Origin: an uncultured Granulosicoccaceae bacterium
Lineage (GTDB): Bacteria > Pseudomonadota > Gammaproteobacteria > Granulosicoccales > Granulosicoccaceae
Direction: 5' to 3'
Assembly (NCBI GenBank): GCA_937927895.1
Contig: CALGKA010000102.1
Span: forward strand, 1-62,476
Length of the DNA: 62,476 nucleotides
Part shown: piece after piece, positions 13,105-53,689 of the stretch
How positions within the stretch are numbered: the first letter of the stretch is position 1
How the letters are laid out: each line of letters starts with the position of its first letter
The notes under the pieces: generated by a model
The model's database searches: none
The model's input: only the letters and a program-made list of their open reading frames with translations
Told to the model about the DNA's origin: nothing
Translations under genes and position numbers: made by a program

Positions 13105-13142
13105 TGATTAGCAGTTAAGTATATAAGCAGGAGCCTAACGCT

Positions 13143-13541: not shown

Positions 13542-13585
13542 GTGTTGTAGCAAGCCCGGTTCAGTGCGTGAAAGCCTCGCTCGTA

Positions 13586-13612
13586 GGAAGCCCTTAAGCG
13601 TAAGCGAGGAGC
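13586..13612. repeat. REP-like element related to the 5.2-5.5 kb repeats
   Basis: GGAAGCCCTTAAGCGTAAGC followed by GAGGAGC resembles the reverse complement of the 5.43-kb repeat core at most positions. With CCTCGCT upstream (13574-13580) it can form a hairpin between the convergent gcvH and ppx genes. Confidence 0.55.
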
Positions 13613-13722
13613 TCTGTGCCGCGATGATTAACAGCCTTCAATCTTTAAAAAGAAATCAGTTGTCCGTGTTTGCAGTAGACACAAATATACATAAAAAACA
13701 CTACTGGCAAATACCCGCAAAG

Positions 13723-16133: not shown

Positions 16134-16190
16134 ATCTTGAGTGTTAGTAAACTGTAGATGTGCGCTTAACCGCGTGCGTAACAAAGTGAA

Positions 16191-17276: not shown

Positions 17277-17287
17277 GGGTCTTGGGC

Positions 17288-35242: not shown

Positions 35243-37138
35243 ATGACATTGCTTCACTGGTTTTCCAGAACCTATAGATATGTATCGGTGCTTAGGCGAC
35301 TGATTGCGTTGCTGTGTCTAATGCTTGCAGGCTTCGCACCCGGCACCGCGTCGGCTGCCGTTTTCTCCGCTGATCTTGAAGTCCATCTGATCGAAGATGT
35401 CTCAACGACCTGGCAGACGGTAACGCTTACTAATAGTTACAGTAACGCGATACCGATTTGTAACTATAACCTTGTTTCATTTTCCGGTGCACACCCAAAT
35501 TACGATTATCCACCAGCGGCAGTGCGGATAAGAAACATAACAGCCAATTCGTTCGACCTTAGAATTCAAGGGTGGGAAGACTCCGCAGCTGTCGCGGGTG
35601 ATGTTCATTGTCTTGTCTCAGATGAAGGTGCCTTTACTCTACCTAACGGCACAAAATACGAAGCGCGCACCGTCGTTTCAGATAGAACCAGCGGTCAGTA
35701 CTCTACTGACGGTGGTTGGGATCAGGCAAACCTTGAAAACGTTAGTGCGGCCATAACACAGACCTATACCAATCACGTGGTGTTAGGGCAGGTTATTAGC
35801 TACAACGATAATCGCGCAAGTGTATTCCATACAACAGATTGTGAATCGCGGCGGAATGAGCCTTATCTTAGTGGCCATGCAGATGGCATATGTGTAGGTA
35901 AGCATATTGGTCAAATTACCGGGAGTAGAAATTCCGAAACGATAGGTTTTATAGTTGCTGAAGAAGGTAGCGGCACAGTTAGCAACATTGATTTTGAGCT
36001 CGCCAGAGGTGGCAACTCAATACGTGGAAACAATAACGCAAATACCGGCTATAGCTACGGGCTTTCTGCTGACTATTCCATTGGTGTTACATCGCAAGTG
36101 GGTGAAAACGGTGGCAATGGTTCGTGGTCTGTATTGTATGGAGCAGATCCGTTGCCTGCCAATCAAATAGTTTTAGCAGTAGACGAACAGACATTTGAAG
36201 GAGATACAACGCGAGGCCACACCGCAGAGATTGTTGACTACTGGGTCTTTGGAACAGCGCAACTAACACTGATTAAAGAAGTAGTGAATGATAACGGCGG
36301 TACAGCGCTTGTTACTGACTTTAAGCTTAGCGCTAACGGCCCTGCGAGTATTTCGGGTATTACCGGTGATCCTTCGATTACCGGGGCAACCGTTGGCCCT
36401 GGAGACTACAGCCTTCTTGAGGGCGGGCCAGCGGGGTATACCGGCACCTGGAGTTGCACTGACGGCACGCTGCTTGGCACAACGCTGACATTGAATACCG
36501 GTGATGATGCGATATGTACGCTCACTAACGACGATGTCTACATCCCACCACCTGATTCCTACCTGACGCTGGAAAAGAAAGTTATCAATGACGATGGCGG
36601 TACTGCTGTGGCCACTGATTTTCAACTTACATTTGACAATGGAACGGGAAGTAGCGGCACTGGGGCAATGGGTGATGCTGCCATTACAGCGGTAGTGGTA
36701 CCACCGGGTGATTACAAGCTAGGTGAGGCACAGGTAACAGGCTATACATTGCAAGAAATTTCATGTGATGGTTTGGACGCAGACGTTACCGATGGTCTGA
36801 CCATAGCAATAGGCGAAACCGTTACCTGTACCTTTGTGAATGATGACAACGGTGTTGATCTTGAAGTTGAAAAACGTGTTAGTGATCTTTCACCAAACGT
36901 CGGTGATGTTGTCACCTTCACTATAGACGTAACTAATAACGGCCCGGACATAGCCACTGATGTGAAAATCACCGATGTGGTTAAGCCCGGGTTTATTTAT
37001 GTAGCCGGTTCTATTACCGGCGGAAGTATCAGGGATGACACCGCGCCTTCAGGTGGTGGACTTGAATGGACAATTGCCAATATTGCAGTAGGTGTGACTG
37101 AATCATTGACATTCCAAACGACTGTATTGCCACCGTAG
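35243..37138 (+). CDS. P1: secreted protein with unknown N-terminal domain, two prealbumin-like repeats and an incomplete DUF11 domain (putative fibre tip)
   Basis: 631 aa from ATG 35243; TTG 35216 and GTG 35288 (VLRRLIALLCLMLAGF) are alternatives. The signal peptide ends ...GTASA. The N-terminal ~310 residues form a Cys-containing domain I cannot name (motifs SYNDNRASVFHTTDCESR, GICVGKHIGQI, GENGGNGSWSVLYGADPL, DYWVF). Two SpaA/prealbumin-like repeats follow (LTLIKEVVNDNGGTA..., LTLEKKVINDDGGTA...). The last ~95 residues are a DUF11-like domain (VDLEVEKRVSDLSPNVGDVV) that stops at LTFQTTVLPP, before the usual NTATV...NN...V strands. Those strands open the next protein. First gene of the operon; P2 starts 21 bp later. 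Confidence 0.82.
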   Translation: MTLLHWFSRTYRYVSVLRRLIALLCLMLAGFAPGTASAAVFSADLEVHLIEDVSTTWQTVTLTNSYSNAIPICNYNLVSFSGAHPNYDYPPAAVRIRNITANSFDLRIQGWEDSAAVAGDVHCLVSDEGAFTLPNGTKYEARTVVSDRTSGQYSTDGGWDQANLENVSAAITQTYTNHVVLGQVISYNDNRASVFHTTDCESRRNEPYLSGHADGICVGKHIGQITGSRNSETIGFIVAEEGSGTVSNIDFELARGGNSIRGNNNANTGYSYGLSADYSIGVTSQVGENGGNGSWSVLYGADPLPANQIVLAVDEQTFEGDTTRGHTAEIVDYWVFGTAQLTLIKEVVNDNGGTALVTDFKLSANGPASISGITGDPSITGATVGPGDYSLLEGGPAGYTGTWSCTDGTLLGTTLTLNTGDDAICTLTNDDVYIPPPDSYLTLEKKVINDDGGTAVATDFQLTFDNGTGSSGTGAMGDAAITAVVVPPGDYKLGEAQVTGYTLQEISCDGLDADVTDGLTIAIGETVTCTFVNDDNGVDLEVEKRVSDLSPNVGDVVTFTIDVTNNGPDIATDVKITDVVKPGFIYVAGSITGGSIRDDTAPSGGGLEWTIANIAVGVTESLTFQTTVLPP

Positions 37139-37159
37139 ATTCGGTATAGACAGGAAGCC

Positions 37160-40100
37160 TTGAGCTTTTGGTTGGATATTATGAATAAATATACACGTAA
37201 AAACTTAGCGCAACGTTTGAGATACTTCTTTTTTGAAAAGGAGTTTAGCGGACCAAGTCTGGGTGTCCTGGGTATTCTCTTTGTGCCTTTGGTGGCTTAC
37301 GCACAAACGCTTGCAGACTATGAAAATACTGCAACTGTTAGTGCATCATCAGATCAATTCGAAGCGGAGCTGTCAAACAATAGCAGCACTGTGCAAGTCA
37401 CACCGAACGCAGAGATCATATTGCTTAAGGAAGTCATCAATGATGATGGTGGTGCGCTTGTCATTGCAGACTTTGGGCTAACCACTAATGCAGGTGCTCT
37501 TGTTTGGGATGCGGGGTCTACGGTCGGCACTACCACTACCTATACCTCTGAAAAGATTTATATGGCGCCCGGCACGTACGCATTAGCAGAAGCAGATGTT
37601 AATGGTTATACGGAAGGATTGTGGGCTTGTTCTGATGGGGTTCTTAGCCGTAACGCTTTTGATGACGGAGAAATAACACTTGCGGCCGGTGAGTCGGCTA
37701 TTTGTACAATTAGCAATGATGACATTGCACCACAACTAACACTGACAAAAGTTATTGTTAATGATAACGGTGGTGATCTGACCGAAGTTGATTTTGATCT
37801 ATCAATAGACACCACTACAGTTACCAGTGGGATCGCTACCAGTGTGGCGGCGAATACAGCGTTTGTCATTAGTGAGAGTGATCTGCCCGGTTACACTGAA
37901 GGTACGTGGGCATGTGTTGATGCAAATTCACTAACGACAGGATTGCCAACTGCCGGTGCGTTTGATGGTGCCAAAATCAATCTGCATCCAGGTGCTGATG
38001 TTAATTGTGAAATCACCAACGACGACATAGCACCAACACTCGCGCTGGTTAAGAATCTAACCAACGATGATGGCGGTAGCCTTACCGCGGCGGATTTTGA
38101 TCTCTCTATAGACGGTACCGTGGTGGCTAGTAATACGCCGCAGACGGTTGACGCTAATGCGCCCATAAGTATTAGTGAACTTGCGGTGCCCGGGTATATC
38201 GCTGGTACCTGGTCGTGCATAGATAGTCAGTCACTAAGCACTGGACTGCCCACTGCGGGTACTGCTACCGGTGTAGATGTAACGCTTAAGCCGGGGTCCA
38301 TAGTAACTTGTGCAATTGACAACGATGACATTGCACCAACGTTAACGCTTGCAAAAACACTCACCAATGATAATGGTGGGGCGCTTGCCATTGATGATTT
38401 TGATATCTCAGTTGACGGCACAGAAGTGACCAACAACGCGGCTAATACTGTGGTTGCAAATGCCACTATTACCATCAGTGAACTAGATATTGATGGCTAC
38501 ACTGAGGGTGCATGGTCTTGTGTTGATGCTAATGGTATTGCAACTGGTCTTCCGACTGCAGGGGCTGCGACTAATACTGATTTAACACTTCCTCCCGGCT
38601 CTGACGTTACCTGTTCAATAACCAATGATGATGTAGCGCCTACATTAACGTTAACCAAAACAGTTGTTAATGATAACGGTGGTGCATTGGCATCAGCCGA
38701 CTTTGATCTGTCTATAGACGGCACACCAGTAGTTGACGGTACACCCAATGTGCTGTCAGCGGGTGTAGCGTACTCCATAAGTGAAATAGACAGCGGTGGC
38801 TACTCCGAAGGGACGTGGGCATGTACAGATTCAACCGGGCTTACCAAGTCACTACCAACGGCTGGAACGGCAACAGGTGCTAGTGTGACTTTAGCTGAAG
38901 GTGCAGAGGTTACCTGTTCAATAACCAATGATGATATCGCACCTACCCTGACGCTTGCTAAAACGGTGACGAATGATAACGGCGGTTTGCTAACGGTTGA
39001 TGACTTCGACATCTCTATAGATGGAACAGAGGTAACTGCAGGTGTCGCACAAACGGTGGTGGCCAATACCGACATTATCATTAGCGAACTTAATCTTGAT
39101 GGCTACACAGAAGGCACTTGGTCTTGTGTAGACAGCGCCGCTCAAACCACGACCTTACCAACTGCTGGTGCTGCGACTTCTACAACCGTTAATCTTGCCC
39201 CAGGTTCAGATGTTGTTTGTAGCATTACCAATGATGATGTCGCGCCGGGTCTGACACTGGTCAAAAACCTGGTGAACGATCATGGCGGTGATCTCACCGT
39301 TGCAGATTTTGAAATTTCTATAGACGGTACCGTGGTGCCGAACAATACGGCGCAGACAGTCGCTGCGAACACGGCTATCACTATTAGTGAGCTTGACCTT
39401 GACGGTTACACCGCGGGTACCTGGAGTTGTGCAGATGCAAACGGACTGACAACGACTTTACCCACTGCAGGTGTAGCAACTGGCACAACCTTAACGCTTG
39501 AGGTGGGATCAGCCGTGACCTGTGAGATCACCAATGACGATATTCAGCCAACCCTGTCCCTTGCGAAGACGGTGGTGAATGATAACGGTGGTGAGCTTGA
39601 TGTCACTGATTTTGATATTTCAATAGATGGCGCTGAAGTCGTAAGCGGGCAGGTAATGCCGGTTATGGCCAATACCGCAATCGCTATTAGTGAGTTAGAT
39701 GTTAATGGCTACACAGAAGGTTCATGGTCTTGTGTGGATGCAAACAGCCTGACTACAGGCTTACCCACAGCAGGGACCGCAACCGGTGAAACCCTGACAT
39801 TGGCACCGGGCTCAGCAGTTGAATGTACTATTGTTAATAACGATATTCCGCCAACTCTTACACTAGTTAAAACGCTTAACAATAATGCTGGTGGCACGAT
39901 GACTATTGCAGACTTCGACATATCAGTTGATGGAGTTGAAGTAACCAGCGGTGTGGCTACACCAGTACTTGCCAATGCAGCGATAGAAATTTCAGAGCTT
40001 GATTTGCCTGGCTATACCGAAGGCAACTGGTCGTGTGTTGATGCGAACGCTCTAACTACGGGTCTGCCGACAGCGGGTGCTGCAACCAGTACTACTCTCG

Positions 40101-41953
40101 AGCTTGAAGTGGGGGCTGAGGTTACGTGTTCGATTACCAATGTTGATATCGCGCCGACATTAACGCTGACTAAAACACTGATAAACAACCATGGCGGTGA
40201 TAAAACTATTGCCGACTTCGATATATCTATCGACAGTACAGAAGTCACCAGTGGTGTTGCGAATATAGTTTCAGCTAACACTGATATAGCAATCAGTGAG
40301 CTGGTTATACCAGGCTATGCGCAAGGTAGCTGGGCATGTACTGATTCAACTGGACTAACAAAAACACTACCTACTGCGGGTGATGCAGCAGGTACTACCC
40401 TTAACCTTGAAGAGGGTTCTGAGGTTGAATGTGTTATCACTAATGATGATATCGAGCCCACGCTCACGCTTGCTAAAACACTCATCAATGACAATGGCGG
40501 TGCGCTAACAATTGATGATTTTGATATCTCAATGGATGGTACGGAGGTACCAAGTGGTGTGGCGCAAGCGGTCACTGCCAATTCGACAATTGAAATCGGT
40601 GAATTGATAGCTCCCGGCTATACGGAAGGTGTGTGGTCTTGTGTTGACGCCAATGGCATTACCACCACACTGCCGAGCGCTGGCGCTGCAACATCGACAA
40701 GTCTTACTGTTCTTCCGGGCTCTGATGTAACGTGTTCAATTACCAATGACGATATCCCACCGCAACTAACCTTGATCACAAATGTGATCAATGATAACGG
40801 CGGGATACTTACCCCTGCAGATTTTGCATTGACCTACGGTGGAATCGCGACAGCCAGTGCGATAGCCAATATTGTGTCAGCCAATACTCTCATTAATATT
40901 GCAGAGCCTGATCTCCCCGGGTACACGGAAGGCGTTTGGGTATGTACTGATGCTAACAATCTAACCAGCGGTTTGCTTACCGGCGGTATTGCAACAGGTG
41001 ATAACGTGACACTTGCACCTGGTGCAGATGTAACCTGTGTGATCACCAATGACGATATCGCGCCACAACTGACTCTGGTTAAAACGCTTGTCAACGATAA
41101 CGGTGGTGATCTCACTATTGATGACTTTGATATTTCAGTAGATGCTACCGAAGTGCCAAGTGGCACTCCACAGACAGTGACTGCTAATACTGCTGTTGCG
41201 ATTTCGGAGCTTGAGCCTGACGGTTACATAGCGGGCACGTGGGCCTGTACTGATGCAAATAGTTTAACTACCGGCCTGCCAACAGCGGGCGCCGCAAGTG
41301 GCGAATCTATAACACTTGCATCAGGTGCTGATGTCACTTGTGAGATTACCAACGACGACCTTGCACCGACACTTACATTAACCAAGATAGTGGTTAATGA
41401 CAACGGTGGCGACCAGACTATTGAAGATTTTGAAATATCTATTGATGGTGCTCCAGTTACCAGTGGTGCGCCGAATATTATTACGGCGAATACACCGCTT
41501 ACTATATCGGAGCTTGATCTTCCAGCTTATGCCGAAGGCACGTGGTCATGTACAGATGCCAATAGTCTGACCACTGGCTTGCCAACTGCTGGTGATGCAA
41601 CGGGCACCACGGTAACGGTGAAGCAAGGTTCAGATGTTACCTGTGAGATTACTAATAACGATCTAGGAATAGACTTGGCGATTGCCAAAGTGGTTAGTAA
41701 TACAACGCCGAATATAGGCGACACCATTACTTTTACGTTGACTATAACCAATGCCGGACCAGACATTGCAACTGACGCGACCGTTAACGATGTTGTATTA
41801 CCAGGCTTTACCTACGTAGCGGGTTCTATAGCCGGTGGAACATCTAGTGATGATACGGATCCTGCCGGTGCAGGTCTTAGCTGGAATCTGGCAAGTGTGC
41901 CTGTTGGCACACCTGTTACCTTGTCTTTTGATGTTGTGGTTAATGCGCCTTGA
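37160..41953 (+). CDS. P2: giant repeat protein, 14 prealbumin-like repeats (putative fibre stalk)
   Basis: 1597 aa, TTG start with AGGAAG upstream. The signal peptide ends VAYA. The mature N-terminus QTLADYENTATVSASSDQFE then AELSNNSSTVQV is the end of a DUF11 domain without its beginning. Fourteen ~98-residue repeats follow (first one longer and diverged), with pattern LTLxKTLxNDNGG...DFDIS.DGT..ISELDxxGYTEGTWSC...VTCxITNDD. Two Cys per repeat could make a disulfide. The C-terminal ~95 residues are another DUF11 domain, ending VTLSFDVVVNAP and again lacking the last strands. The stop overlaps P3's start. No anchor or membrane segment: probably a secreted stalk. Confidence 0.88.
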   Translation: MSFWLDIMNKYTRKNLAQRLRYFFFEKEFSGPSLGVLGILFVPLVAYAQTLADYENTATVSASSDQFEAELSNNSSTVQVTPNAEIILLKEVINDDGGALVIADFGLTTNAGALVWDAGSTVGTTTTYTSEKIYMAPGTYALAEADVNGYTEGLWACSDGVLSRNAFDDGEITLAAGESAICTISNDDIAPQLTLTKVIVNDNGGDLTEVDFDLSIDTTTVTSGIATSVAANTAFVISESDLPGYTEGTWACVDANSLTTGLPTAGAFDGAKINLHPGADVNCEITNDDIAPTLALVKNLTNDDGGSLTAADFDLSIDGTVVASNTPQTVDANAPISISELAVPGYIAGTWSCIDSQSLSTGLPTAGTATGVDVTLKPGSIVTCAIDNDDIAPTLTLAKTLTNDNGGALAIDDFDISVDGTEVTNNAANTVVANATITISELDIDGYTEGAWSCVDANGIATGLPTAGAATNTDLTLPPGSDVTCSITNDDVAPTLTLTKTVVNDNGGALASADFDLSIDGTPVVDGTPNVLSAGVAYSISEIDSGGYSEGTWACTDSTGLTKSLPTAGTATGASVTLAEGAEVTCSITNDDIAPTLTLAKTVTNDNGGLLTVDDFDISIDGTEVTAGVAQTVVANTDIIISELNLDGYTEGTWSCVDSAAQTTTLPTAGAATSTTVNLAPGSDVVCSITNDDVAPGLTLVKNLVNDHGGDLTVADFEISIDGTVVPNNTAQTVAANTAITISELDLDGYTAGTWSCADANGLTTTLPTAGVATGTTLTLEVGSAVTCEITNDDIQPTLSLAKTVVNDNGGELDVTDFDISIDGAEVVSGQVMPVMANTAIAISELDVNGYTEGSWSCVDANSLTTGLPTAGTATGETLTLAPGSAVECTIVNNDIPPTLTLVKTLNNNAGGTMTIADFDISVDGVEVTSGVATPVLANAAIEISELDLPGYTEGNWSCVDANALTTGLPTAGAATSTTLELEVGAEVTCSITNVDIAPTLTLTKTLINNHGGDKTIADFDISIDSTEVTSGVANIVSANTDIAISELVIPGYAQGSWACTDSTGLTKTLPTAGDAAGTTLNLEEGSEVECVITNDDIEPTLTLAKTLINDNGGALTIDDFDISMDGTEVPSGVAQAVTANSTIEIGELIAPGYTEGVWSCVDANGITTTLPSAGAATSTSLTVLPGSDVTCSITNDDIPPQLTLITNVINDNGGILTPADFALTYGGIATASAIANIVSANTLINIAEPDLPGYTEGVWVCTDANNLTSGLLTGGIATGDNVTLAPGADVTCVITNDDIAPQLTLVKTLVNDNGGDLTIDDFDISVDATEVPSGTPQTVTANTAVAISELEPDGYIAGTWACTDANSLTTGLPTAGAASGESITLASGADVTCEITNDDLAPTLTLTKIVVNDNGGDQTIEDFEISIDGAPVTSGAPNIITANTPLTISELDLPAYAEGTWSCTDANSLTTGLPTAGDATGTTVTVKQGSDVTCEITNNDLGIDLAIAKVVSNTTPNIGDTITFTLTITNAGPDIATDATVNDVVLPGFTYVAGSIAGGTSSDDTDPAGAGLSWNLASVPVGTPVTLSFDVVVNAP
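37400..41660 (+). repeat. Tandem ~300-bp coding repeats in P2
   Basis: Thirteen well-conserved plus one diverged unit, each starting near a CC(A/G)..CTnAC(A/G)CT codon block and ending ACC AAT GAT GAT. Codons vary between units, so amplification is old rather than recent. Confidence 0.85.
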
Positions 41954-44900
41954 TATTTAAATCCTTAATACGCTCACACTACCGACCATCACGGTTTCCA
42001 GGCGTGATGGTCGGGCTGTGCTGTGCGTTGATAATGGGCTCGGCACACTCTGCTGTAAACGGGATGACGCCTGTTGAGTTTACCAATACTGCCACGATAG
42101 CTCCGTCACCGAGTCAGTTTGAAAATAATCAGGCGAATAACACATCGTCTGTGGTGGTGTTGCCGAAAGCGTTTGAGATAAGTAAAACCGCAGATGTCTC
42201 TGCATTGTCTACACCCATTGCGGCTGGTGATCAGATCACCTATGTCATCACCGCGAGAAATCTCGGTTTGCTTGGGCTTACGAATGTCACTGTTAACGAT
42301 ACTATTGTTCCCGCAGCCAATGTGTCACTAATCAGCGGAGATACAAATACCGATCAGATACTAGATGCAAACGAACTCTGGACATGGCACGGCATCTACA
42401 CCGTGCCCCAATCGGATATTGACACCAACGGTGGTGGTGACGGCGATATAGATAACACCGTTACGGTTAGCACTGATGAACTACCACCGCTGACAGATTC
42501 CGTAGAAGTACCAGTAACACAAGAGCCTGCGTTTACGGTTGCAAAAGTTGTTGATCAAACGTCTATTGCTGCACCCTCAACGCTTAGCTATCAAATCAGT
42601 ATTACTAACACCGGTAACCAAACACTAAGTGCAGTGACACTGACTGATACATTGCCAGACGGCAGTGCAGCAACGCTTACCGGTCCAATAGCCGATATCG
42701 GTCAGGCAGGTTTGCTTGATCCCGGTGAAACCTGGGAGTACACATCAACGTTCGCTGCTAGTCAGGCAGATATTGATGCAGGCGCATTGTTGACTAACAG
42801 TGTCTCTGTGGTTGCGGCTGAGACCGGCACTGATGCCGAGGTAGCCACTGCTGAAACTGAAGTTCAGGCGACGCCTGAGTTTGTTGTGAGCAAGGTAGTT
42901 GATCAAGAAAATTTAACCGCGCCCGGTACGCTTGCCTACACCATTACTGTTGAAAATACCGGTAACGTATCTCTCACTGGTGTAACACCGGTTGATACTT
43001 TACCTGATGGAACAGCGGGTAGTTTAACAGGGCCGGTTGCTGATACTGGTGCTGCAGGTGTCTTAGATGTTGCTGAAACCTGGACCTACAACATTAGCTA
43101 TCCGGTTTCTCAGGCAATAATTGATACCGGTGCAACACAGATTAATACTGTTGAAGTAGTGAGTAATGAAACCGGTGATACACCTGTTAGTGATACCGCA
43201 AGTACTGAAATTGAAATCGAACCATCATTTACTATTGCTAAGTCTGTCGATAAGGCAACGGTGTCTGCGCCTGAATTGCTAAGCTATGCGGTTGTTCTGG
43301 AAAACACAGGTAATGTCACGCTGACAGATGTCGCCGTAAGTGATCAATTATCTAACGGCACGGCTTTAACGCTTGTAGGGCCTACAGCTGATGTTGGTAC
43401 AACTGGCGCGCTTGATGTCGGTGAGACATGGGAATATACGACCACCTACAGTGTTACTCAGAATGACATTGATTCAGGTATAGATCTCACCAATACCATT
43501 ACAGTAGATACTGCAGAGCTTGACCCGCAGGCAGATACAGCGGTAACGACTATCACCAGTGCACCTGATCTTGAAGTGACTAAGACAGTAGATCTGGCAT
43601 CTGTTAATGCGCCGGGCACGCTCAGCTATATTATTGAAGTGAGTAATACAGGCAATGTGAGCCTGAGTAATGTAACGCCTGTTGACACTCTGCCAGACGG
43701 AACAATAGCAACACTTGTCGGGCCCACTACAGATACAGGTGCTACTGATATTTTAGATGTGGGTGAAACATGGCAGTACACAACAGCGTATACCGTAAGC
43801 CAGACAGAAATAGATTTAGGTCAACCGCGTGACAACACCGTTGCAGTCACTACCGATGAAACAGGTGACGATCTATTCAGCGCTGTAGCGACCACAACAA
43901 TAGTCTCTGAACCAGGCTTCATGGTTGAAAAGAATGTAGATCAAACACAGATCACCGCACCTTCCACATTGAACTACAGCATTGTTGTTAGTAATACTGG
44001 CAACATAACGCTAAACAATGTCACCGTTGATGACACACTGCCAGACGGCACGCAAGCAGTATTAGCAGGCCCAACCGGTGACGTCGGCATTGCCGGTGCT
44101 TTAGATGTTGGTGAAGTATGGACCTACACCACCACATATGCGGCACTGCAAGATCATATTGATGTGGGTGTGGCGTTAGTGAATAGCGTGACCGTCTCAA
44201 CCGATGAAGCTGGCACTCATACAGACGCAGCGACCACCGATATTCAGCAAACACCGGGCATCGCGATTGTAAAGGCTGCAAACGAAACTGAATATACCAA
44301 AGCTGGTGACATCATTAACTATGCATTCCTGATAGAGAACACCGGTAACCTGTTGCTAAGCAATGTTGTGATCAGTGATCCAATTGCCGATGCAGGGTCC
44401 CTTCGTTGTCTGCCGCCGGGGCAGCCAACATCGGCGCAGCTTTCAAGTGGTCCTTTTGTATTGGCACCGGGTCAGCTGATGAACTGTACTGCACAGCGAA
44501 CCGTGACAGTGGCTGATGTACTAGCCACGCGTGTAGACAATCAAGCAACGGTCAGTTCAGAAGATCCACAGGGTAATGAAGTCGTTGCAGAGAGCGCGCT
44601 AATCAGTGTGCCAATGGTCATTATGCCGCCGGTCGCGACTGATAACAGCTTTAACTCGCCAGACAGTGGAGTGCCAGTGACGCTTGCGGGTGGTGCTGAT
44701 GATACTGACGTTAACGGTGATAAAGACATTGCTAGTGTATCGTTTACCAGTCCCGATGCACAAGATACCGATGCTGACGGTGACAAAGACTCGCTGATAG
44801 TTGCAGGCGAAGGTAGCTGGATAATTAATAACACCACAGGCAACGTCACCTTTACTCCAGAGGCGGGCTTCACTGCAGATCCGACACCGGTAACTTATAC

Positions 44901-47889
44901 CATCAGCGATCTTAGCGGGCAGGTATCAAATGTTGCGGTGTTGAGCATTAATTATCCTCAGACTGCACCAGTAGCGGAAGATGATCTGAAAGTGAATCCG
45001 GCGGTTCCATCTCCGACTAACCCGACTATCGTTAATGTGCTTGCCGACAACGGTAGCGGTATAGACTCTGACGCTGAAGATGATCTGCTAGTAAGCACAA
45101 TAGCTTTTGTTGATCCCAATGCTACCGACACAGATGGTGACGGCGATGCTGATAACGTAGTAGTGGTTGGTGAAGGTGTGTGGCAAATAGACAACGCCAC
45201 TGGTGATGTAACGTTTACTCCTGAAGCGGGGTTCTATGCAGACCCAACACCGGTTAACTACACGGTTTCTGATGCCAACGGTCTGGTTTCTAACGAAGCG
45301 ACGATTACAATTGACTACCCGCAAACAGCACCGCTTGCGGTTAATGATGAGCGGCTCAATCAGCCATTAGCGCAGCCTGTGACTGTATCTGTGCTTGAAA
45401 ATGATTCCGACCCTGAAGGTAACCTGGACTTAACAACCGTTGTGCTCATTGACCCTGTAACCGATGCGCCCGTCAGTGTGTTGCCAGTAGCAGGTGAGGG
45501 TGTATGGCGGGTTGATGCAGTATCCGGTGAAGTGACCTTCACACCAGATCCAGGGTTCATCACCAACCCTACGCCGGTTGAATATCTGGTTTCTGACTCC
45601 ACAGGTTTAGAATCAAACCGCGCCACAATCACTATAACGTTTGAACAGCCAGCAAGGCTTGCGGGCACTGTTTGGCTTGATGCAGACAGAGACGGTGAAA
45701 TAGATTCCAATGAAGAGCGCAAGTCTGGTTGGCAGCTGAAGCTGCTTGATGCAAACGGCAATGTAGTAGCGACTACAACCACAGATGCAGAAGGTAACTA
45801 CGTCTTTGAAGGGTTGGTGCCCGCAGAATATACCGTTGAATTCTACAATCAAAACGGCGTGTTTATGGACAGCGCACAGACAAACGGTACGTTGATCGCC
45901 GGTGAGACAATCGTGTTGCCGTTACCGGTTGATCCGAGTGGTGTTGTCTACGACAGTATTGCGCGTGTACCGGTAGAGGGTGTCACGCTAAATCTTGTGA
46001 ATGCAGCCGGGGTGTTGGTTGATACTTCCTGCCTTCGAGAGGAGCAACAGGGGCAGGTAACACTCGCAGACGGCTTGTATGCGTTTGATCTATACCCGGG
46101 TACACATGCATCTTGTGCTTTGACCGATATCTATAAAATTCAAATCGCTTCTGTGCCGGATGCTTTTCATCCTAATTTCTCATCGATCATTCGTCAGGAA
46201 GGTGCGGGCAGTTGCGGTAGTCCTGACATTGGATGTGCCGTGTCGGGTACATTTGATAGTGATCCGCTGGAATCCCGCTGTACAGTTGATGCGATCAGCG
46301 ATACCCGTGCCTGTGAGGTGCAGCCACAACCCGACGCACCGCAGCTGGGTGAAGATACTCGTTACTTTGTTGAGTTTGAAATTGCCTCAGGTGACCAGAA
46401 CGTGATCTTTAATCATATTCCACTTGATGCCAGAGCTAATGATGCGGAAATTCTGCTGACAAAAAGTGTTGATCAAAGAGAGACCTCGGTCGGCTCTTTG
46501 GTTCGCTACACCATTACCGCAGAGAACCTGAAACAGGTACCAGCATTTGCGATAGAAATAGTGGATACCCCGCCGGCAGGATTTACCTACGATCAAAGCA
46601 GCGTGCTACTGAGTCGTCGTGGAGCGGATGGTGAACTGAACACCATTGATGATGTCGTCACTCCACTTGCAGCGGTAATGAATGATGATCTAACGTTTAA
46701 TGCACTAGATCTTGAACCGGAAGAGTCCATACAAATCACCTACTTAATGAAAGTAGGTGCAGGTGTGATCAGTGGTAGTCATGTTAACCGTGTAGTGGCA
46801 AGTGGTCCGAACGGCGAGGCCAGTAATAGCTCTGTGGCAAGTGTTGAAGTAGTGGCTGATCCGGTACTGAGTCAGGCAACCCTGATAGGTAAGGTATTTG
46901 TTGATCGCGATCGCGACGGTATACAAGATTCAGCAGATGTTACTGATGTGCAGCTGAGCAGCGCTTACTACGGCACGATTGAACTACCGGATATACCAGC
47001 GCGCGATAGTGTCGAGGCTGATCCGCGGCACAGTGCTATTGTCATCAATATGCCACGCACGGCAGACAACACAATAGCTATTGCGACTCGTGAAGGCACG
47101 AGGATTAACATAGACCCTGACGGTGTTGTGACAGAAGCTCATATTGGTGAGCGTGCTCGCGGTACTACTGCTCAAGATCTACTCGTGTGTACAAGGTTTA
47201 CAACCGCAACTCCCACACTTAAAGATGGCTCCGTTGGCACAGAATCAGTTGAAGTGGTCGAGATTGTTCTGAGTAATCTTGGTATAAGTGAGCCGGGAAT
47301 TCCCGGTGCAAGACTCGCGACTGTTAGCGGTTTGTTAATACAGACAGACCGCTACGGGCGTTATCACGTGCCAGACGTAGACGCGGGCTCAATTGGTATA
47401 GGCCAGAACTACATTCTGAAAGTTGATCCGGCATCACTGGCCGACGGTGCGACCTTTACCACAGAAAACCCCTACGTACTAAGACTAGACAGTAACGCAC
47501 TTAATAAAATGAACTTCGGTGTCTTGTTGCCTGAATCTGCTGAGCGATTTGCAAATACCTGTGAGCCACAGATGGCCGCAGCGGTTGCTACCAAAATAGT
47601 AGAGGTAAAGTTAGGTTCCGTTTTCTTTGATACTGATGATGCATCTGTTAGAGACGATCAAAGAGGTGTTGTGGAAGATATTATCGACGCACTGCGAAAG
47701 TATGGTGGTGGTGAGATAACGATCAGCGCTAATACCGACAGTCGCGCATCATTTGAATACAACATAACACTTGCAGAGCGCAGAGCTACAACGATTCGTA
47801 ATGTAATTAGCCGGGCGTTGGGCGCTGAACTTATGGCCGACGTCACGGTAATGGTCGATCCGGCTGCATACCAGGAGTCTGATCAATGA
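41950..47889 (+). CDS. P3: giant secreted multidomain protein ending in an incomplete OmpA-like domain
   Basis: 1979 aa. TTG start in a 4-bp overlap with P2's stop (ATG 42007 is possible). The signal peptide ends SAHSA; the mature start PVEFTNTATIAPSPSQFENN then QANNTSSVVVLP is the end of a DUF11 domain. Seven DUF11/DUF7507-like repeats follow (about 65-880), then three cadherin-like blocks with DTDADGDKD or DTDGDGDAD calcium-type loops (about 890-1230), SdrD-B-like segments (LAGTVWLDADRDGEIDSNEE; LIGKVFVDRDRDGIQDSAD), another DUF11, and an OmpA_C-like domain (VFFDTDDASVRDDQRG, ERRATTIRNVI) that ends before the usual NRRV strand. P4 begins with that strand. Confidence 0.85.
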   Translation: MIFKSLIRSHYRPSRFPGVMVGLCCALIMGSAHSAVNGMTPVEFTNTATIAPSPSQFENNQANNTSSVVVLPKAFEISKTADVSALSTPIAAGDQITYVITARNLGLLGLTNVTVNDTIVPAANVSLISGDTNTDQILDANELWTWHGIYTVPQSDIDTNGGGDGDIDNTVTVSTDELPPLTDSVEVPVTQEPAFTVAKVVDQTSIAAPSTLSYQISITNTGNQTLSAVTLTDTLPDGSAATLTGPIADIGQAGLLDPGETWEYTSTFAASQADIDAGALLTNSVSVVAAETGTDAEVATAETEVQATPEFVVSKVVDQENLTAPGTLAYTITVENTGNVSLTGVTPVDTLPDGTAGSLTGPVADTGAAGVLDVAETWTYNISYPVSQAIIDTGATQINTVEVVSNETGDTPVSDTASTEIEIEPSFTIAKSVDKATVSAPELLSYAVVLENTGNVTLTDVAVSDQLSNGTALTLVGPTADVGTTGALDVGETWEYTTTYSVTQNDIDSGIDLTNTITVDTAELDPQADTAVTTITSAPDLEVTKTVDLASVNAPGTLSYIIEVSNTGNVSLSNVTPVDTLPDGTIATLVGPTTDTGATDILDVGETWQYTTAYTVSQTEIDLGQPRDNTVAVTTDETGDDLFSAVATTTIVSEPGFMVEKNVDQTQITAPSTLNYSIVVSNTGNITLNNVTVDDTLPDGTQAVLAGPTGDVGIAGALDVGEVWTYTTTYAALQDHIDVGVALVNSVTVSTDEAGTHTDAATTDIQQTPGIAIVKAANETEYTKAGDIINYAFLIENTGNLLLSNVVISDPIADAGSLRCLPPGQPTSAQLSSGPFVLAPGQLMNCTAQRTVTVADVLATRVDNQATVSSEDPQGNEVVAESALISVPMVIMPPVATDNSFNSPDSGVPVTLAGGADDTDVNGDKDIASVSFTSPDAQDTDADGDKDSLIVAGEGSWIINNTTGNVTFTPEAGFTADPTPVTYTISDLSGQVSNVAVLSINYPQTAPVAEDDLKVNPAVPSPTNPTIVNVLADNGSGIDSDAEDDLLVSTIAFVDPNATDTDGDGDADNVVVVGEGVWQIDNATGDVTFTPEAGFYADPTPVNYTVSDANGLVSNEATITIDYPQTAPLAVNDERLNQPLAQPVTVSVLENDSDPEGNLDLTTVVLIDPVTDAPVSVLPVAGEGVWRVDAVSGEVTFTPDPGFITNPTPVEYLVSDSTGLESNRATITITFEQPARLAGTVWLDADRDGEIDSNEERKSGWQLKLLDANGNVVATTTTDAEGNYVFEGLVPAEYTVEFYNQNGVFMDSAQTNGTLIAGETIVLPLPVDPSGVVYDSIARVPVEGVTLNLVNAAGVLVDTSCLREEQQGQVTLADGLYAFDLYPGTHASCALTDIYKIQIASVPDAFHPNFSSIIRQEGAGSCGSPDIGCAVSGTFDSDPLESRCTVDAISDTRACEVQPQPDAPQLGEDTRYFVEFEIASGDQNVIFNHIPLDARANDAEILLTKSVDQRETSVGSLVRYTITAENLKQVPAFAIEIVDTPPAGFTYDQSSVLLSRRGADGELNTIDDVVTPLAAVMNDDLTFNALDLEPEESIQITYLMKVGAGVISGSHVNRVVASGPNGEASNSSVASVEVVADPVLSQATLIGKVFVDRDRDGIQDSADVTDVQLSSAYYGTIELPDIPARDSVEADPRHSAIVINMPRTADNTIAIATREGTRINIDPDGVVTEAHIGERARGTTAQDLLVCTRFTTATPTLKDGSVGTESVEVVEIVLSNLGISEPGIPGARLATVSGLLIQTDRYGRYHVPDVDAGSIGIGQNYILKVDPASLADGATFTTENPYVLRLDSNALNKMNFGVLLPESAERFANTCEPQMAAAVATKIVEVKLGSVFFDTDDASVRDDQRGVVEDIIDALRKYGGGEITISANTDSRASFEYNITLAERRATTIRNVISRALGAELMADVTVMVDPAAYQESDQ

Positions 47890-50800
47890 AAATGAATTCA
47901 TTAAGTTGGTCTATAGCGCTGGTTCTGGCGGGCAGTGGTGTTATTGGCATGCAGTCTGACAGTGTTGCAGAAGCGGTAGATTGTGCTTCGGGTGAATGCG
48001 AAGCACAGGCACCGTACACGCTTAAAATAATCTCTCGCGGAGAGGGCGCACCTCAGGCTGCCAACCAAACGCCTGAGGGATTGCAGCAAAACCGAAGGGT
48101 TGATGTCAGTATTTCTAAAGAAGTCCCTGTCAAAGTGATTGATGCTTCGGCAAAGGCCGCCGGTGTTTCACTTGATGGTGACACGTTAATACAAACCGGT
48201 GGTGGCAAGTTCTGGATCTCGAGAGACCCAACGTCGTTGCAAAAAGTGTTAGGTGTGAAAGTGCCGTCTTCTGTAAAACTCACCGCTAACGGCGAGCTTG
48301 AGAATCCGGTAAAAATATCACTCGGTAGCAATTACGCCGCCTTCTTAGAGCGTTGGCAGTTGCGGGTATTGCCACAAGGTAGTGCACTTGATAGTGAGCC
48401 ACTATTTATAAAAGAAGGCAATCTGGCAGGTATGAAGTCGGTTATCGAATGGGATGCCACACTGGCATCGGGTGCGCAAATCAAGCCCGGTGATAAGTTC
48501 GATCTTGTACTTCGCGTTTATGATGCAGCAGGTAACTATGATCAGGCAGTCGCAAGAACTATTGAGTTTACATCTGCGCTAGAGAGCAATACAACAGCCA
48601 GTTCTGTACAGGCTATTGAAGATCTATCAATAAAAAGCCTTGCTGAAGTTGATGGCGATTACAGCGAAGGATTTGCAATTCAATCGGTAGCAGTCTCTGG
48701 TAGTACGGTGGTGCTTCGTGGAACTGAACTAACAGACGTTCAATCCGTAGAGGTAAACGGTGAAGAAGTCGCGCTAATTGCTGGCAGCGAATTTGTAGCA
48801 GAATACATTTTGCCACCAGGGCAGCACGACTTTGATATCAGTGCAGAACAAAAATCAGGTGACGTCATTAATCGACAGCTTGATGTAGAAGTGAAGCCCG
48901 GATACTTTTTTATAGTCGGTTTGGCTGATCTTACTGTTGGGGAAAACAAAGTCAGCGGTAGTATTGAACCGTTAGCAGTTGATGAGCATCATTATGGCGA
49001 CGATATCTTCGTTGATGGCCGCCTTGCGTTTTATCTAAAGGGTAAAGTCAAAGGTAAGTATTTACTGACTGCGCAAATGGATACCGGCACCGAAGATGTA
49101 TCAAAGCTATTTGATGACTTTCATCGCAAAGATGCACGCAGTGTATTTAGAAGAGTCGATCCGGATCAGTACTATCTGGTCTACGGTGATGATTCGACTA
49201 TAGTCGATGATACCGATAGCCAGGGTAAGCTTTATCTGCGCGTAGACTGGGATAACTCGCACGCGCTGTGGGGGAATTTTAATACCGCATTTAGTGGCAC
49301 TGAGTTCGCAGCATTTAATCGTAGTTTATATGGTGCACAGCTGCGCCATAGCAGTCTGGCAATGACAGAGCTTGGTGATCGTAAAACAGAAATATCTGCC
49401 TTTGTCTCAGAGGCGCAAACGGTTTTCCGGCATAACGAATTCGCTGGTACCGGTGGCAGTCTGTATTATCTGCGAGACCAGGATATCGTACTGGGCTCAG
49501 AGAAGGTCTGGGTTGAAGTCAGGCGTGATAACTCTGAACAAGTGTTGCAGAAAATGCCACTGGAACGCGGGCGCGACTATGAGATCGATGAATTCCAGGG
49601 GCGTATAATTCTTACCCGTCCATTATTAAGTGTATCTGCGCAGAACGGGCCATCGATTATTCGTGATGAGCCCGATATTGGTGATAACACTTTTCTAGTG
49701 GTTGATTATGAATATGTGCCAGCAGATTTTACCGGTGGTGATGCGACAGCGGGGGTGCGAGCCAAGCGTTGGATCAACAATCATGTGGCTATCGGTGGTA
49801 CCTGGGCACATGAAGATCGCGAGTCTGATGATTACGATGTTAAAGCGTTTGATGTCACTGTTAAAAAGTCTGATAACACTTATGTGCGGCTCGAAATGGC
49901 GCAAAGTGAATCAAAGCAGACAGCCGGGAGTTTTCAGTCTTCTGACGGCGGTCTGACATTCTCAGCTAATAATTCAGCATCAGACTCGGCATCGGGAAAT
50001 GCTGTCGGAATTGAAGCCAGAGTGTCTGCCAATGAAATTGTTGATCTGGATGTACCTGTTACGATTGCGGCATGGGCCAAAAAAAGGGAGGCAGGTTTTA
50101 ACTCAACCAGTTTAGATGATGGTATCGAAACTACAGACACTGGTGCTGAATTGGTGGCCGAAGTCAGTGAAGTGCTAGACCTCTCAGCGCGGGCCACTAA
50201 TCTGCAAAAAAGATTAGAAAGCAGTGAATCAGTTTATGCCTTGCAGGCAGACTATCGATATTCAGAAAGAACCATTGTCAGTGGTGAAGTAAGACATGTT
50301 AAAAATGAAGATCTAAGCAATGATACCGGAGAATCAGCGACCTTAGCTGCCGGTAGAGTTGCCGTCCAGGTTACAGACACACTTGAGGCTTATGGTATAG
50401 CGCAAGGTGTGCTGGAAAGTAGTGGCGATTATCAAAGTAATAGCTTGCTCACCGCAGGTGTCAGAGCGAAGCTAAATGACCGCATGAAAGTAAACGGTGA
50501 AATGAGCTCTGGTGATCGTGGCACCAATCTATTGTTAGGTGCAGAGCATACATTCAGCAACACCTATAGCGTTTACGCGAATATGAATTTCCTTAGTGAT
50601 CAGAGCGATTCCTTCGAGCGACTGATCACGTTAGGGCAGCGTAAGGCAATATCGAACAAGCTTAAAGTATACACAGAGCATCAGTTCAGCTCTGAAGATA
50701 CCCGCACGGGACTTACCAATACCTTTGGTTTGTCTAATACGTTTAATCGCTATGCTACCGGTACGCTGTCTTTCCAGTCATCGCGAATCGAAGATGAATC

Positions 50801-51539
50801 TGACGATATTACCGAACGCGATACGCTAACAGCCGGCCTTAGTTTTAAGCGACAAGAGAGCCGTCTTTCAACCAAGCTTGAATTTAGAAAAGACAAATCT
50901 GCAACAGTCGATACTGACCAGTGGGTCAGTGTGACAAGCATAGAGTATCGCTATTCACCTGCGCTCAGAGTTCAGGGGCGTTTAAATCATTCCGTAACGC
51001 AAGACAATGCATCGGTTGTAGGACTCGAAAACGCAATGTTCACAGAGGCGGGTCTTGGTTTTTCCTACAGACCAGTGTCGAATGATCGTTTGAATCTCCT
51101 CGGGCGCTACACTTACCTGCATGATCTGCCACCTCTGTCACAGAGTGATGACGCCGATAGTAGAGCATCCATAATTAGTTTAGAAAGCCTATACGAAGTT
51201 GGTAAGCGCTGGACAGTCGGCGGCAAGCTTGCGCATCGCGAAAGTGAAGTTCGTACGGCAAGACAAACAGGGGAATGGGTTGCTAACGACGCGAGTCTCG
51301 CTGCGGTCAGGCTGCGCTATAAGGCACCTTTTGGTGTTGATGCCATGGGTTCGTATCATTGGCTGAGCTCTGATGCTACCGACAGCGTACGTCATGGCGC
51401 GTTGTTGTCAGTCGGCCATAATGTTGGTAGTAATCTTCAGTTTTCTGTAGGTTATAACTTTACAGCCTTCGACGATAATCTGGCCAATGATGACTACGAC
51501 GTTAAAGGCTGGTTCTTTAATTTAGTGGGTAAGTATTAA
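47886..51539 (+). CDS. P4: outer-membrane beta-barrel protein starting with the end of an OmpA-like domain (putative anchor)
   Basis: 1217 aa; ATG in ATGA overlap with P3's stop, and AGGAG 9 bp upstream. Signal peptide about 1-30. Residues about 43-76 (YTLKIISRGEGAPQAANQTP then EGLQQNRRVDVSI) are the final strand and NRRV motif of an OmpA_C domain that P3 lacks. Next come Ig-like or extracellular/periplasmic domains (to about 330), then a long Gly/aromatic-alternating region (about 380-1217: DGRLAFYLKGKVKGKYLLTA ... FNLVGKY) typical of a large outer-membrane beta barrel with terminal Tyr. Last gene of the operon; likely the surface anchor. Confidence 0.85.
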   Translation: MKMNSLSWSIALVLAGSGVIGMQSDSVAEAVDCASGECEAQAPYTLKIISRGEGAPQAANQTPEGLQQNRRVDVSISKEVPVKVIDASAKAAGVSLDGDTLIQTGGGKFWISRDPTSLQKVLGVKVPSSVKLTANGELENPVKISLGSNYAAFLERWQLRVLPQGSALDSEPLFIKEGNLAGMKSVIEWDATLASGAQIKPGDKFDLVLRVYDAAGNYDQAVARTIEFTSALESNTTASSVQAIEDLSIKSLAEVDGDYSEGFAIQSVAVSGSTVVLRGTELTDVQSVEVNGEEVALIAGSEFVAEYILPPGQHDFDISAEQKSGDVINRQLDVEVKPGYFFIVGLADLTVGENKVSGSIEPLAVDEHHYGDDIFVDGRLAFYLKGKVKGKYLLTAQMDTGTEDVSKLFDDFHRKDARSVFRRVDPDQYYLVYGDDSTIVDDTDSQGKLYLRVDWDNSHALWGNFNTAFSGTEFAAFNRSLYGAQLRHSSLAMTELGDRKTEISAFVSEAQTVFRHNEFAGTGGSLYYLRDQDIVLGSEKVWVEVRRDNSEQVLQKMPLERGRDYEIDEFQGRIILTRPLLSVSAQNGPSIIRDEPDIGDNTFLVVDYEYVPADFTGGDATAGVRAKRWINNHVAIGGTWAHEDRESDDYDVKAFDVTVKKSDNTYVRLEMAQSESKQTAGSFQSSDGGLTFSANNSASDSASGNAVGIEARVSANEIVDLDVPVTIAAWAKKREAGFNSTSLDDGIETTDTGAELVAEVSEVLDLSARATNLQKRLESSESVYALQADYRYSERTIVSGEVRHVKNEDLSNDTGESATLAAGRVAVQVTDTLEAYGIAQGVLESSGDYQSNSLLTAGVRAKLNDRMKVNGEMSSGDRGTNLLLGAEHTFSNTYSVYANMNFLSDQSDSFERLITLGQRKAISNKLKVYTEHQFSSEDTRTGLTNTFGLSNTFNRYATGTLSFQSSRIEDESDDITERDTLTAGLSFKRQESRLSTKLEFRKDKSATVDTDQWVSVTSIEYRYSPALRVQGRLNHSVTQDNASVVGLENAMFTEAGLGFSYRPVSNDRLNLLGRYTYLHDLPPLSQSDDADSRASIISLESLYEVGKRWTVGGKLAHRESEVRTARQTGEWVANDASLAAVRLRYKAPFGVDAMGSYHWLSSDATDSVRHGALLSVGHNVGSNLQFSVGYNFTAFDDNLANDDYDVKGWFFNLVGKY

Positions 51540-51985: not shown

Positions 51986-53689
51986 ATGAAGGGTTTATGG
52001 CGCGGTGCTCTTGCCGCTTGTGTGTTATTAGCGGGCACGCTACCAGGCGTGGTATCAGCGTGTGGTGGGTTTTTCTGCCAAACCTTGCCTATCAATCAGG
52101 CAGCAGAGCAAATTGTGTTTCGTCAAGATGGCAGTCAAGTGACTGCGATGGTACAAATTCAGTTTGAAGGTAATGCTGAAGATTTTAGTTGGGTCGTACC
52201 AGTGCCTAATACACCGACATATGAGATCGGCAGCAATACCGCCTTTACTGATCTTGAGCGTGTTACGCGGCCGCAATTTATTTTACAAAGAACCGGTGAA
52301 CAGTGCGCGGTCCCGGAATTCCTCGCCTCACCAACTGCAGTGGCTGATAGTGCCGAAGGTGGAGATACAGGTGGTGGCGTAACAATAGAAAGCGTGCAAG
52401 ATGTCGGCGGTTATACCGTTACACTCATCAGTGGTACCAATGCAGACGCCGTGGCCCAGTGGTTAGTCGATAATAATTATGATTTAAACGATAAGGGTCG
52501 TGAATTACTCGCACCGTATGTCGAAGCGGGAATGAAGTTTGTGGCGGCGAAGCTACAGCAGAACAGGGGGCTTGGCAGTATTAAACCGCTTATAATGAAA
52601 TATCAAAGTGATAACCCCATGATCCCCATTCGCTTAACCGCAGTCGCGGCCCTTGAAGATATGGGTGTGTTGGTATGGGTGTTGGGCGATGCACGTGCAG
52701 TGCCTGAAAACTATTTGCATGTAACACCCAACTATACTCGTCTAGATTGGTTTTCAGGCTTTGGCAATAACGCTTATGCAAGTTATCAGGCATTGGTTAC
52801 TGAGGCTATGAATGAAGCCGGTGGGCAAGGCTTTGCCACTGACTATGCCGGGCGCTTTCCTAATCTTTTCGATAGCCTCACAAAGCCCGCTGATATCCAG
52901 GCGCAATTGGATCGACTAAATGGTTCTTCTGATGCAGAGTTTATAAGCTTGGTGCAAAACTTTATTGGCGACCCGGTAGTGGTAGATACCTTAACGAATG
53001 GCTTGCCACTCAGAGATGGTCAGTCTGCTAATCAGTATCGTGATCAAAACTTTCTAACCTCCAACTATACAGCTGCCGAATTATCGGCTGCGCGTTCAGC
53101 GGTTGATGCTGTGATACAAGCAGATGTCATAGATTCGTTGCAAACATCGCTCGATGTTCTTGGTGGTAATCGTTACATGACAAGGCTTTACACAACGTTG
53201 TCAGCTGATGAAATGACTCTAGACCCGGCGTTTGTGTACAACAGTGATATGGGGGATCAGCAGCTTGATCGCAATGCAACACTTAATTCGCAATGTATAG
53301 ACGATGAAAACCACTGGACCTTAAAACTAGGCGAGGGTACCGGCCGTACCGATGAAGTAGTTATTAATACCATTGGCCCGATCCCGTTTGTAGCACCTCT
53401 TATCCAACAAGATGCCAGTTGGAAACTTGAGGTCACGGCAGCTGCGGGGTTACCCGTAGTAGATACTCAGCGGGAGTTTCAAATAGCATCTTTCGGTTCA
53501 CCGGGTACTGGTATTACAGATAACACGACTGGTGGCACTGACGGTGATGGCAGCACAGATGGGTCTGGCGACACAGATGGGTCTGGCGACACAGATGGCT
53601 CTGGCAACAGCGGATCTTCAAGCGGTGGCGGTGGATCGCTGGGTTTATTTGTATTAGTAGTTATGGCTGCAGCCAGACGCCGGGCTTAA
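51986..53689 (+). CDS. DUF2330 protein with GlyGly-CTERM tail
   Basis: 567 aa. The signal peptide ends GVVSA, followed by CGGFFCQTLPINQAAEQIVF and QIQFEGNAEDFSWVVPVP, the conserved N-terminal region of DUF2330 proteins of unknown role. After residue 505 a Gly/Asp/Ser linker (DGSGDTDGSG repeats) leads to SSSGGGGSLGLFVLVVMAAA and an Arg-rich end, a GlyGly-CTERM rhombosortase signal. It is probably processed and released or attached at the cell surface like the lyase at 553-2148. AUG start with GGAG upstream. Confidence 0.88.
   Translation: MKGLWRGALAACVLLAGTLPGVVSACGGFFCQTLPINQAAEQIVFRQDGSQVTAMVQIQFEGNAEDFSWVVPVPNTPTYEIGSNTAFTDLERVTRPQFILQRTGEQCAVPEFLASPTAVADSAEGGDTGGGVTIESVQDVGGYTVTLISGTNADAVAQWLVDNNYDLNDKGRELLAPYVEAGMKFVAAKLQQNRGLGSIKPLIMKYQSDNPMIPIRLTAVAALEDMGVLVWVLGDARAVPENYLHVTPNYTRLDWFSGFGNNAYASYQALVTEAMNEAGGQGFATDYAGRFPNLFDSLTKPADIQAQLDRLNGSSDAEFISLVQNFIGDPVVVDTLTNGLPLRDGQSANQYRDQNFLTSNYTAAELSAARSAVDAVIQADVIDSLQTSLDVLGGNRYMTRLYTTLSADEMTLDPAFVYNSDMGDQQLDRNATLNSQCIDDENHWTLKLGEGTGRTDEVVINTIGPIPFVAPLIQQDASWKLEVTAAAGLPVVDTQREFQIASFGSPGTGITDNTTGGTDGDGSTDGSGDTDGSGDTDGSGNSGSSSGGGGSLGLFVLVVMAAARRRA
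53554..53607 (+). repeat. Three 18-bp tandem repeats in the DUF2330 linker
   Basis: CACAGATGGGTCTGGCGA occurs perfectly at 53554 and 53572, with a third copy (two changes) at 53590; it codes TDGSGD units. Confidence 0.9.

Follow-up and report, generated by a model that had tools for sequence, protein, structure and literature searches.

A 62,476-nucleotide window from an uncultured Granulosicoccaceae bacterium (contig CALGKA010000102.1, contig C102 of genome G000, 4.55 Mb and 92.6% complete) carries four open reading frames (ORFs) lying head to tail on the + strand, hereafter P1 (35243..37138), P2 (37160..41953), P3 (41950..47889) and P4 (47886..51539). We propose that this operon encodes one likely fibrillar adhesin produced in four pieces, each gene border cutting through a domain, and that the pieces would rejoin by strand complementation and covalent joints into a fibre held by P4, an interpretation based on sequence profiles and structure modelling to which we assign a probability of roughly 0.68. 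Strand complementation between neighbouring proteins is well supported, because the splits are conserved, the profile halves are complementary, a structure model joins them and a relative carries the OmpA-type domain fused. A covalent nature of the P1–P2 and P2–P3 joints is probable, with Lys and Asn contributed by two different proteins. Slightly better than even is the broader proposal of a natural tag/catcher system in a family of Gram-negative adhesins, in which split isopeptide domains with an immunoglobulin-like (Ig) fold would weld themselves in order without sortase, chaperone or usher, the P4 barrel serving for export and anchoring.

Complementary domain halves at three gene borders

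The C-termini of P1 and P2 read LTFQTTVLPP and LSFDVVVNAP, and the original prediction had placed both in DUF11-like domains cut off before their last strands. Profile searches bear this out: residues 548-637 of P1 match positions 1-84 of the 114 of the Pfam DUF11 profile (71.8 bits against a curated cut-off of 24.6), and residues 1505-1595 of P2 match positions 1-85 (62.9 bits against the same cut-off). These truncated domains are referred to below as acceptors (36851..37135 in P1 and 41666..41950 in P2, both on the + strand). The missing strands were found, as likewise foreseen, at the mature starts of the following proteins, which read as quoted in that prediction: scored alone, the N-terminal segment of P2 (the donor, 37298..37414, + strand) matches DUF11 positions 88-114 (E 0.0033) and that of P3 (42058..42174, + strand) positions 87-114 (E 0.01), both below the Pfam cut-off because they are only 36 and 39 residues long. 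P1 and P2 are accordingly members of PF01345 (CLIPPER/DUF11) above the curated cut-off, with truncated matches whose remainder corresponds to the beginning of the following protein. Such ends are not expected by chance, since of the 15 matches of the acceptor profile in the same genome only those of P1 and P2 end at the stop codon, with 0 residues after, while the other 13 continue for at least 115 residues or past the end of the piece read. Both donors follow apparent signal peptides; the claim of a fresh signal peptide before every donor is retained in this weaker form, the signal peptides of P1-P4 having been called by eye and with a hydropathy window.

The third border divides an OmpA-type domain. 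The C-terminus of P3 and the N-terminus of P4 cover positions 102-167 and 176-206 of a YiaD-type profile of 206, positions 26-102 and 108-137 of a TssL profile of 137, and positions 56-121 and 129-162 of a YfiB profile of 163 overall, all of these matches being below curated cut-offs that suit whole proteins. Scored alone, P3 matches positions 1-64 of the 98 of Pfam OmpA (PF00691; 47623..47808, + strand) at 24.0 bits, slightly below the cut-off of 27.2, and the N-terminal segment of P4 alone gave no Pfam match; the missing end, defined by the YiaD-type match, lies near the mature start of P4 (48021..48113, + strand). In a relative of the same family (L071), the P3-like and P4-like parts form one chain of 2249 residues with no signal peptide between them, and its Pfam OmpA match is complete (1-98 of 98, 43.5 bits against 27.2). 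This match, at residues 990-1093, spans the P3/P4 border, the P4-like part beginning at residue 1067. That P3 stops inside an OmpA-like fold resumed by P4, and that each split falls at a gene border, are thus both sustained, by complementary halves of three profiles at this border and by complementary halves at all three borders. In the operon of another relative (L055, 17621-18264), the OmpA features are unrecognisable in both halves together, a joint degeneration that would fit co-evolution of the two halves in this single case judged by eye.

Around these borders, P1 (the predicted tip; ATG at 35243, with a possible TTG start at 35216) comprises a signal peptide, an N-terminal region with weak H-type lectin resemblance and two SpaA-type domains before its acceptor. 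P2, the predicted stalk, places 14 SpaA_2 stretches identified by Pfam scan between donor and acceptor, following its signal peptide. P3, the predicted base, continues from signal peptide and donor through DUF7507/DUF11 repeats, CshA-type repeats and an SdrD_B domain to the first OmpA part, and its gene shares a 4-base overlap with that of P4.

Predicted bond residues and a model of the proposed P1–P2 joint

The isopeptide chemistry of DUF11, and the division of its bond residues between the two halves, had escaped the original prediction. The family was renamed CLIPPER on the basis of the crystal structure 9IFR, in which an isopeptide bond links Lys715 and Asn806 and Asp748 is the presumed catalyst (PMC12617251). 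The acceptor profile aligned to 9IFR without gaps over 54 residues, which pairs its Lys 8 with Lys715 and its Asp 42 with the Asp that is residue 44 of the chain, and Asn806, within NNVVNKVTAS of 9IFR, was matched by eye to ADYENTATVSAS of the donor. The corresponding residues in the window are Lys553 (36872-36874) of P1 and Lys1510 (41687-41689) of P2 as predicted bond residues, Asp587 (36974-36976) and Asp1544 (41789-41791) of the same acceptors as predicted catalytic residues, and Asn56 of P2 (37325-37327) and Asn46 of P3 (42085-42087) as predicted bond partners. All three bond residues of PF01345 are present, divided between two proteins.

Among the matches listed, Lys was found in 104/104 P1 and 45/45 P2 acceptors and Asp in the same 104/104 and 45/45, or 149/149 for each, and Asn in 43/43 donors of P2 homologues; Asn is also present in 30/30 donors of A4. 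In addition, Lys and Asn occupy the equivalent places in seven DUF11 repeats of this genome that are complete; six of these also keep the Asp, and the seventh has Glu. The family of the P2 repeats, SpaA_2, is itself listed with isopeptide residues in PMC12617251. An intermolecular bond would be expected once the halves meet, because Lys and Asp lie on the acceptor and Asn on the donor, each of them invariant, and the P1–P2 and P2–P3 joints are probably covalent on these sequence grounds.

The structure of the first joint was modelled with AlphaFold2 as a read-through, in which the end of P1, the TAG rendered as Q, seven codons and residues 1-192 of P2 form one chain of 295 residues, from an alignment of 34 rows (7 read-throughs, query included, and 27 unpaired pieces). 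The model reached a mean pLDDT of 82 and a pTM of 0.74, with pLDDT values of 91-98 in the acceptor blocks, 76 in the last of them and 84-93 in the donor blocks. Structure 9ifr aligned with it over 116 of 123 residues (2.6 Å), 3idu over 106 of 110 (2.3 Å), 2kl6 over 106 of 108 and 1ayo over 119 of 130. Single-domain chains were matched over 106-121 aligned residues, beginning at model residue 1 or 2 and ending at 185-188. These ranges give only the first and last model residues; since the acceptor accounts for just 95 residues and most of the linker is helical or lacks structure, the extra aligned residues would come mostly from the donor. The first ranks in Foldseek were multi-domain Gram-positive pilins, with 9ifr seventh, and a phmmer search of the same read-through against Protein Data Bank (PDB) sequences returned weak antibody matches only. 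The start of P2 is thereby predicted to complete the fold of P1, the single-chain read-through of this one joint favouring a shared fold.

Recurrence in relatives, P4 and a second layout

The homologue sets comprised, for P1, 120 of 235 proteins listed, 104 of them with an acceptor over 60 bits, and for P2, 120 of 717 proteins listed, 45 with an acceptor over 60 bits and 43 with a donor over 25 bits. Within these sets, the chain terminates exactly at the final column of the acceptor profile, leaving 0 residues beyond it, in 102/104 P1 and 45/45 P2 homologues; the two P1 exceptions (P0158 and P0220), whose matches cover the first acceptor half alone, are probably contig-end artefacts. The donor stands at the start of 43/45 P2 homologues, the other two (P0260 and P0284) starting inside repeats, and it was detected in 0/120 proteins of the P1 set (best 120 of 235). 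The split thus falls at the same place in homologous operons, as the original prediction anticipated, and where full-length C-terminal domains would have told against it, the P1 and P2 homologues end at the acceptor instead.

All four genes were recovered in 13 relatives (L052-L056, L058, L060-L064, L066 and L070), with P1-P3 up to the contig end in two further loci (L129 and L130) and P2-P4 in another (L057). Throughout these operons the stops of P1 and P2 keep their position; the length of P2 ranges between 383 and 1597 residues (window included), whereas its two ends are constant. The donor profile matched 14/57 genomes (own included), exactly twice in each, on one contig, in P2 and P3. In a relative of the same genus (L067, genome G007, 1622-17875), a single repeat protein of 5417 residues takes the place of P1-P3, with 33% identity to P3 in its last portion and only a weak resemblance to P1 and P2; a separate P4 and the split OmpA domain are kept after it. 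From such natural fusions, the pieces seem to behave as parts of one adhesin. Two further truncated ends were observed in relatives: a second acceptor-ended protein with a different N-terminal region lies just upstream of P1 in L055 (6373-7932), possibly an alternative tip, and a 239-residue ORF downstream of P4 in L033 (14516-15235) also ends in a truncated DUF11.

P4 would be an outer-membrane barrel, with 46 modelled strands in its predicted barrel region (49236..51536, + strand), 40 of them of 8 or more residues, and Pfam assigned it to no family. Its two nearest named relatives (78% and 71% identity) come from Granulosicoccaceae metagenome bins; 19 relatives match most of it at 46-78% identity, and 49/143 genomes (own included) match it at E 0.001, many of them weakly or partially. 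The 4-base overlap of P3 and P4 is kept in 20/20 loci of the family, which suggests that their translation is coupled, and outside the family a gap can occur (6 bases in L047). P4 was also considered as a true usher: FimD gave the best rows in the VIA comparison, but Foldseek ranked teneurin, BtuB and SprA first, hhalign found no relation between P4 and FimD and the genome has no usher family match, so this resemblance was kept as a lead only. Another long protein (mostly ~2000 residues), weakly similar to the P4 barrel, occurs in 25/48 family genomes by hand count; this second barrel family of the relatives is exemplified by G006:C107, G030:C139 and G005:C65 (L083-L085). Downstream in the window, a gene for a DUF2330 protein (51986-53689) encodes a glycine-rich stretch, a hydrophobic segment and an Arg-rich C-terminus; this tail resembles a C-terminal sorting tail, with no link to the fibre here.

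A second arrangement was found in a Lysobacter-type family, where P4 was detected at E 1e-60 in 33/119 genomes. Across 20 loci and genome G211, an Asn-containing donor stands at the start of 9/9 P3 genes whose signal peptide is readable; those left uncounted were open at contig edges, contained runs of N (L145 and L157) or had no readable signal peptide (L159 and L163), no P3 was obtained for L154 and L160, and L148 and L047, probably one contig in view of their equal length, were counted once. Acceptor-ended ORFs lie downstream of P4 in 7/20 Lysobacter-type loci. Irrespective of position relative to P4, 39 such ORFs were found in 23/37 loci of Lysobacter-type and related groups, using a profile built from 14 sequences of those loci; some loci are probably duplicates (such as L043/L158), and the Lys is visible in the printed start of 37/39. 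Judged from these sequences the genes occur in two layouts, tip-stalk-base-barrel and base-barrel-tip(s), the latter without P2, and P2, which bears both halves, looks like an inserted extender. In one Lysobacter protein (P0301, 2696 residues), a donor-like mature start and a P4-like barrel end are joined in the same chain; when its OmpA end was sought by motif, the only place returned lay in the barrel part.

The proposed fibre, its alternatives and its meaning

In the proposed assembly, rejoining of the pieces would be extracytoplasmic, since P2 and P3 each carry, behind an apparent signal peptide, the strands that the preceding protein lacks. The acceptor Lys and donor Asn would then form an isopeptide bond with the help of the acceptor Asp, as within an intact CLIPPER domain, so that P1–P2 and P2–P3 would be welded covalently without sortase. 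P1 would sit at the distal tip, P2 would form a stalk whose length varies and P3 the base, with the gene order corresponding to the N-to-C order of the fibre; the OmpA part of P3, completed by P4, would probably be periplasmic, and the fibre may pass through or beside the P4 barrel and be held there. The tip role of P1 is suggested by gene order, the lack of a donor and the weak H-type lectin match (10/30 sequences), and the P1 profile gave no match to PDB sequences at E 0.01. Of the assembly model first put forward, strand complementation between neighbours is well supported, while the fixed order, the surface location and the tip role of P1 remain predictions.

Several observations weigh against this interpretation. 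Acceptor-donor distance correlations favour no particular pairing (partial rho 0.21-0.32 in each of the six pairs over 13 operons; computed without L055, which has unknown bases in P1, and without L129 and L130, fetched later). The AlphaFold2 model is a single chain, in which proximity is favoured, and for this reason constitutes support and not proof. Regarding the bond, the correspondence of donor Asn and Asn806 was placed by eye, the published text prints Asp-748 whereas the aligned Asp is residue 749 when we number the chain, and some DUF11 domains have no isopeptide bond according to PMC12617251. The homologues are related to one another, and a limit of <80% identity leaves 64/102 P1 and 13/45 P2 acceptors. 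At the P3/P4 border, both OmpA halves appear degenerate by eye in the L055 operon, and the start of P4 is divergent in that of L054. Finally, no donor was found in 43/57 genomes, including 8/14 of the same genus; as donors occur in 14/57 genomes and in 6/14 within the genus, the system is dispensable.

Two alternatives, each unlikely in our estimation, preserve strand complementation. In the first, P2 would polymerise with itself, its N-terminal donor entering the acceptor of another P2, to give a homopolymer capped by P1 and ended by P3. Only P2 carries both halves, the P1 and P2 acceptors of the same operon are 45-66% identical in 12/13 operons (the thirteenth being out of register), and both kinds of donor keep Asn and NN. 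Chaperone-usher pili follow this logic. However, P2 is already a long rod whose length varies with its number of repeats (383-1597 residues), and the close or overlapping genes suggest similar amounts of each protein. The second alternative, with comparably low odds, is a non-covalent joint, in which Lys, Asp and Asn would serve fold stability in a fibre resembling chaperone-usher or type V pili, and the unbonded DUF11 domains mentioned above are in its favour. It sits poorly with the invariance of Lys and Asp in 149 acceptors and of Asn in 43 donors among the matches listed, and with the position of the three residues on the bonded residues of 9IFR (by eye for Asn).

Considerably less probable is that the truncated domains do not interact and are leftovers of a fused ancestral adhesin, their ends being stable alone or otherwise bound; the same-genus relative with one 5417-residue protein before P4 indicates that fission or fusion probably happened, but the exact ends and donor residues are kept in 102/104 and 45/45 homologues and in two operon layouts, a constancy that mere leftovers should not display. 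A frameshift, stop or assembly artefact, by which one long gene would be misread as four, can be practically dismissed: P1 and P2 share a reading frame in the window, where one TAG and 21 bases separate them, but this arrangement is not conserved in relatives, each piece has its own start and apparent signal peptide, and the borders recur in independent genomes with differing spacers and frames, as does the 4-base P3/P4 overlap in 20/20 loci. Read-through of the TAG as a biological process was also rejected, P1 and P2 being out of frame in four relatives (L052, L054, L055 and L062).

Several known systems resemble the proposed fibre in part. In chaperone-usher pili such as type 1 (FimA/FimD), the Ig-like fold of a subunit is completed by its neighbour's N-terminal extension, and the tip of the pilus has an acceptor and no donor. 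The predicted barrel of P4 matched FimD best in one structural comparison, but P4 has no profile homology to FimD, and the donors of P2 and P3 span the last strands plus their loop. No usher (PF00577) and no PapD-type periplasmic chaperone (PF00345) was matched in the 92.6% complete source genome, with positive E. coli controls, nor any sortase (PF04203), with three positive Gram-positive controls. Type V pili of Bacteroidota likewise exchange strands between subunits, but are built from lipidated precursors by protease-triggered polymerisation according to PMC9715654; no lipobox was obvious by eye at the starts of P1-P4, for which no dedicated search was made.

The single-chain CLIPPER adhesin of 9IFR (PMC12617251) shares the domain family, the places of Lys, Asp and Asn, stalk repeats and a C-terminal OmpA-like domain, but its domain is whole and its bond intrachain, whereas here the domain is divided between two apparently secreted proteins. 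DUF11 has also been described as a repeat in a spore-fibre anchor (PMC11952670). SpyTag/SpyCatcher-type pairs (PMC5487036 and PMC6539128) similarly have an isopeptide domain split so that Lys and its partner are on separate pieces, but were engineered from whole domains, whereas here the split would be natural and lie between genes. By analogy, the closest system in principle is that of the archaeal threads (Saci_0406), which combine donor strand complementation with a proposed intermolecular isopeptide bond (PMC9715654). They consist of one main subunit from another protein family, and their bond joins the Asn57 side chain to the N-terminal amine of Asp24 in the subunit two places along, unlike the Lys-Asn bond predicted here within a completed domain. 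The initial statement that no system of this kind had been described needs to be qualified in this respect. Moreover, a natural intermolecular bond that forms autocatalytically in a helical hairpin is attributed in PMC12617251 to Remaut, Sleutel and Sogues 2025. No natural isopeptide domain split between two secreted proteins was described in the titles and abstract starts returned by searches of an open-licence library, a scope outside which most subscription journals and bioRxiv lie.

If the proposed assembly is correct, bacteria would have evolved the split-isopeptide trick that protein engineers made artificially, and would use it to join separate, exported parts into fibres of high mechanical strength, no enzyme being known for the task. 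New genetically encoded covalent coupling pairs would then be available in P1/P2, P2/P3 and the Lysobacter-type tip/base. For the organisms themselves, adhesins of >5,000 residues would be makeable in modules, with exchangeable tips and stalk lengths.

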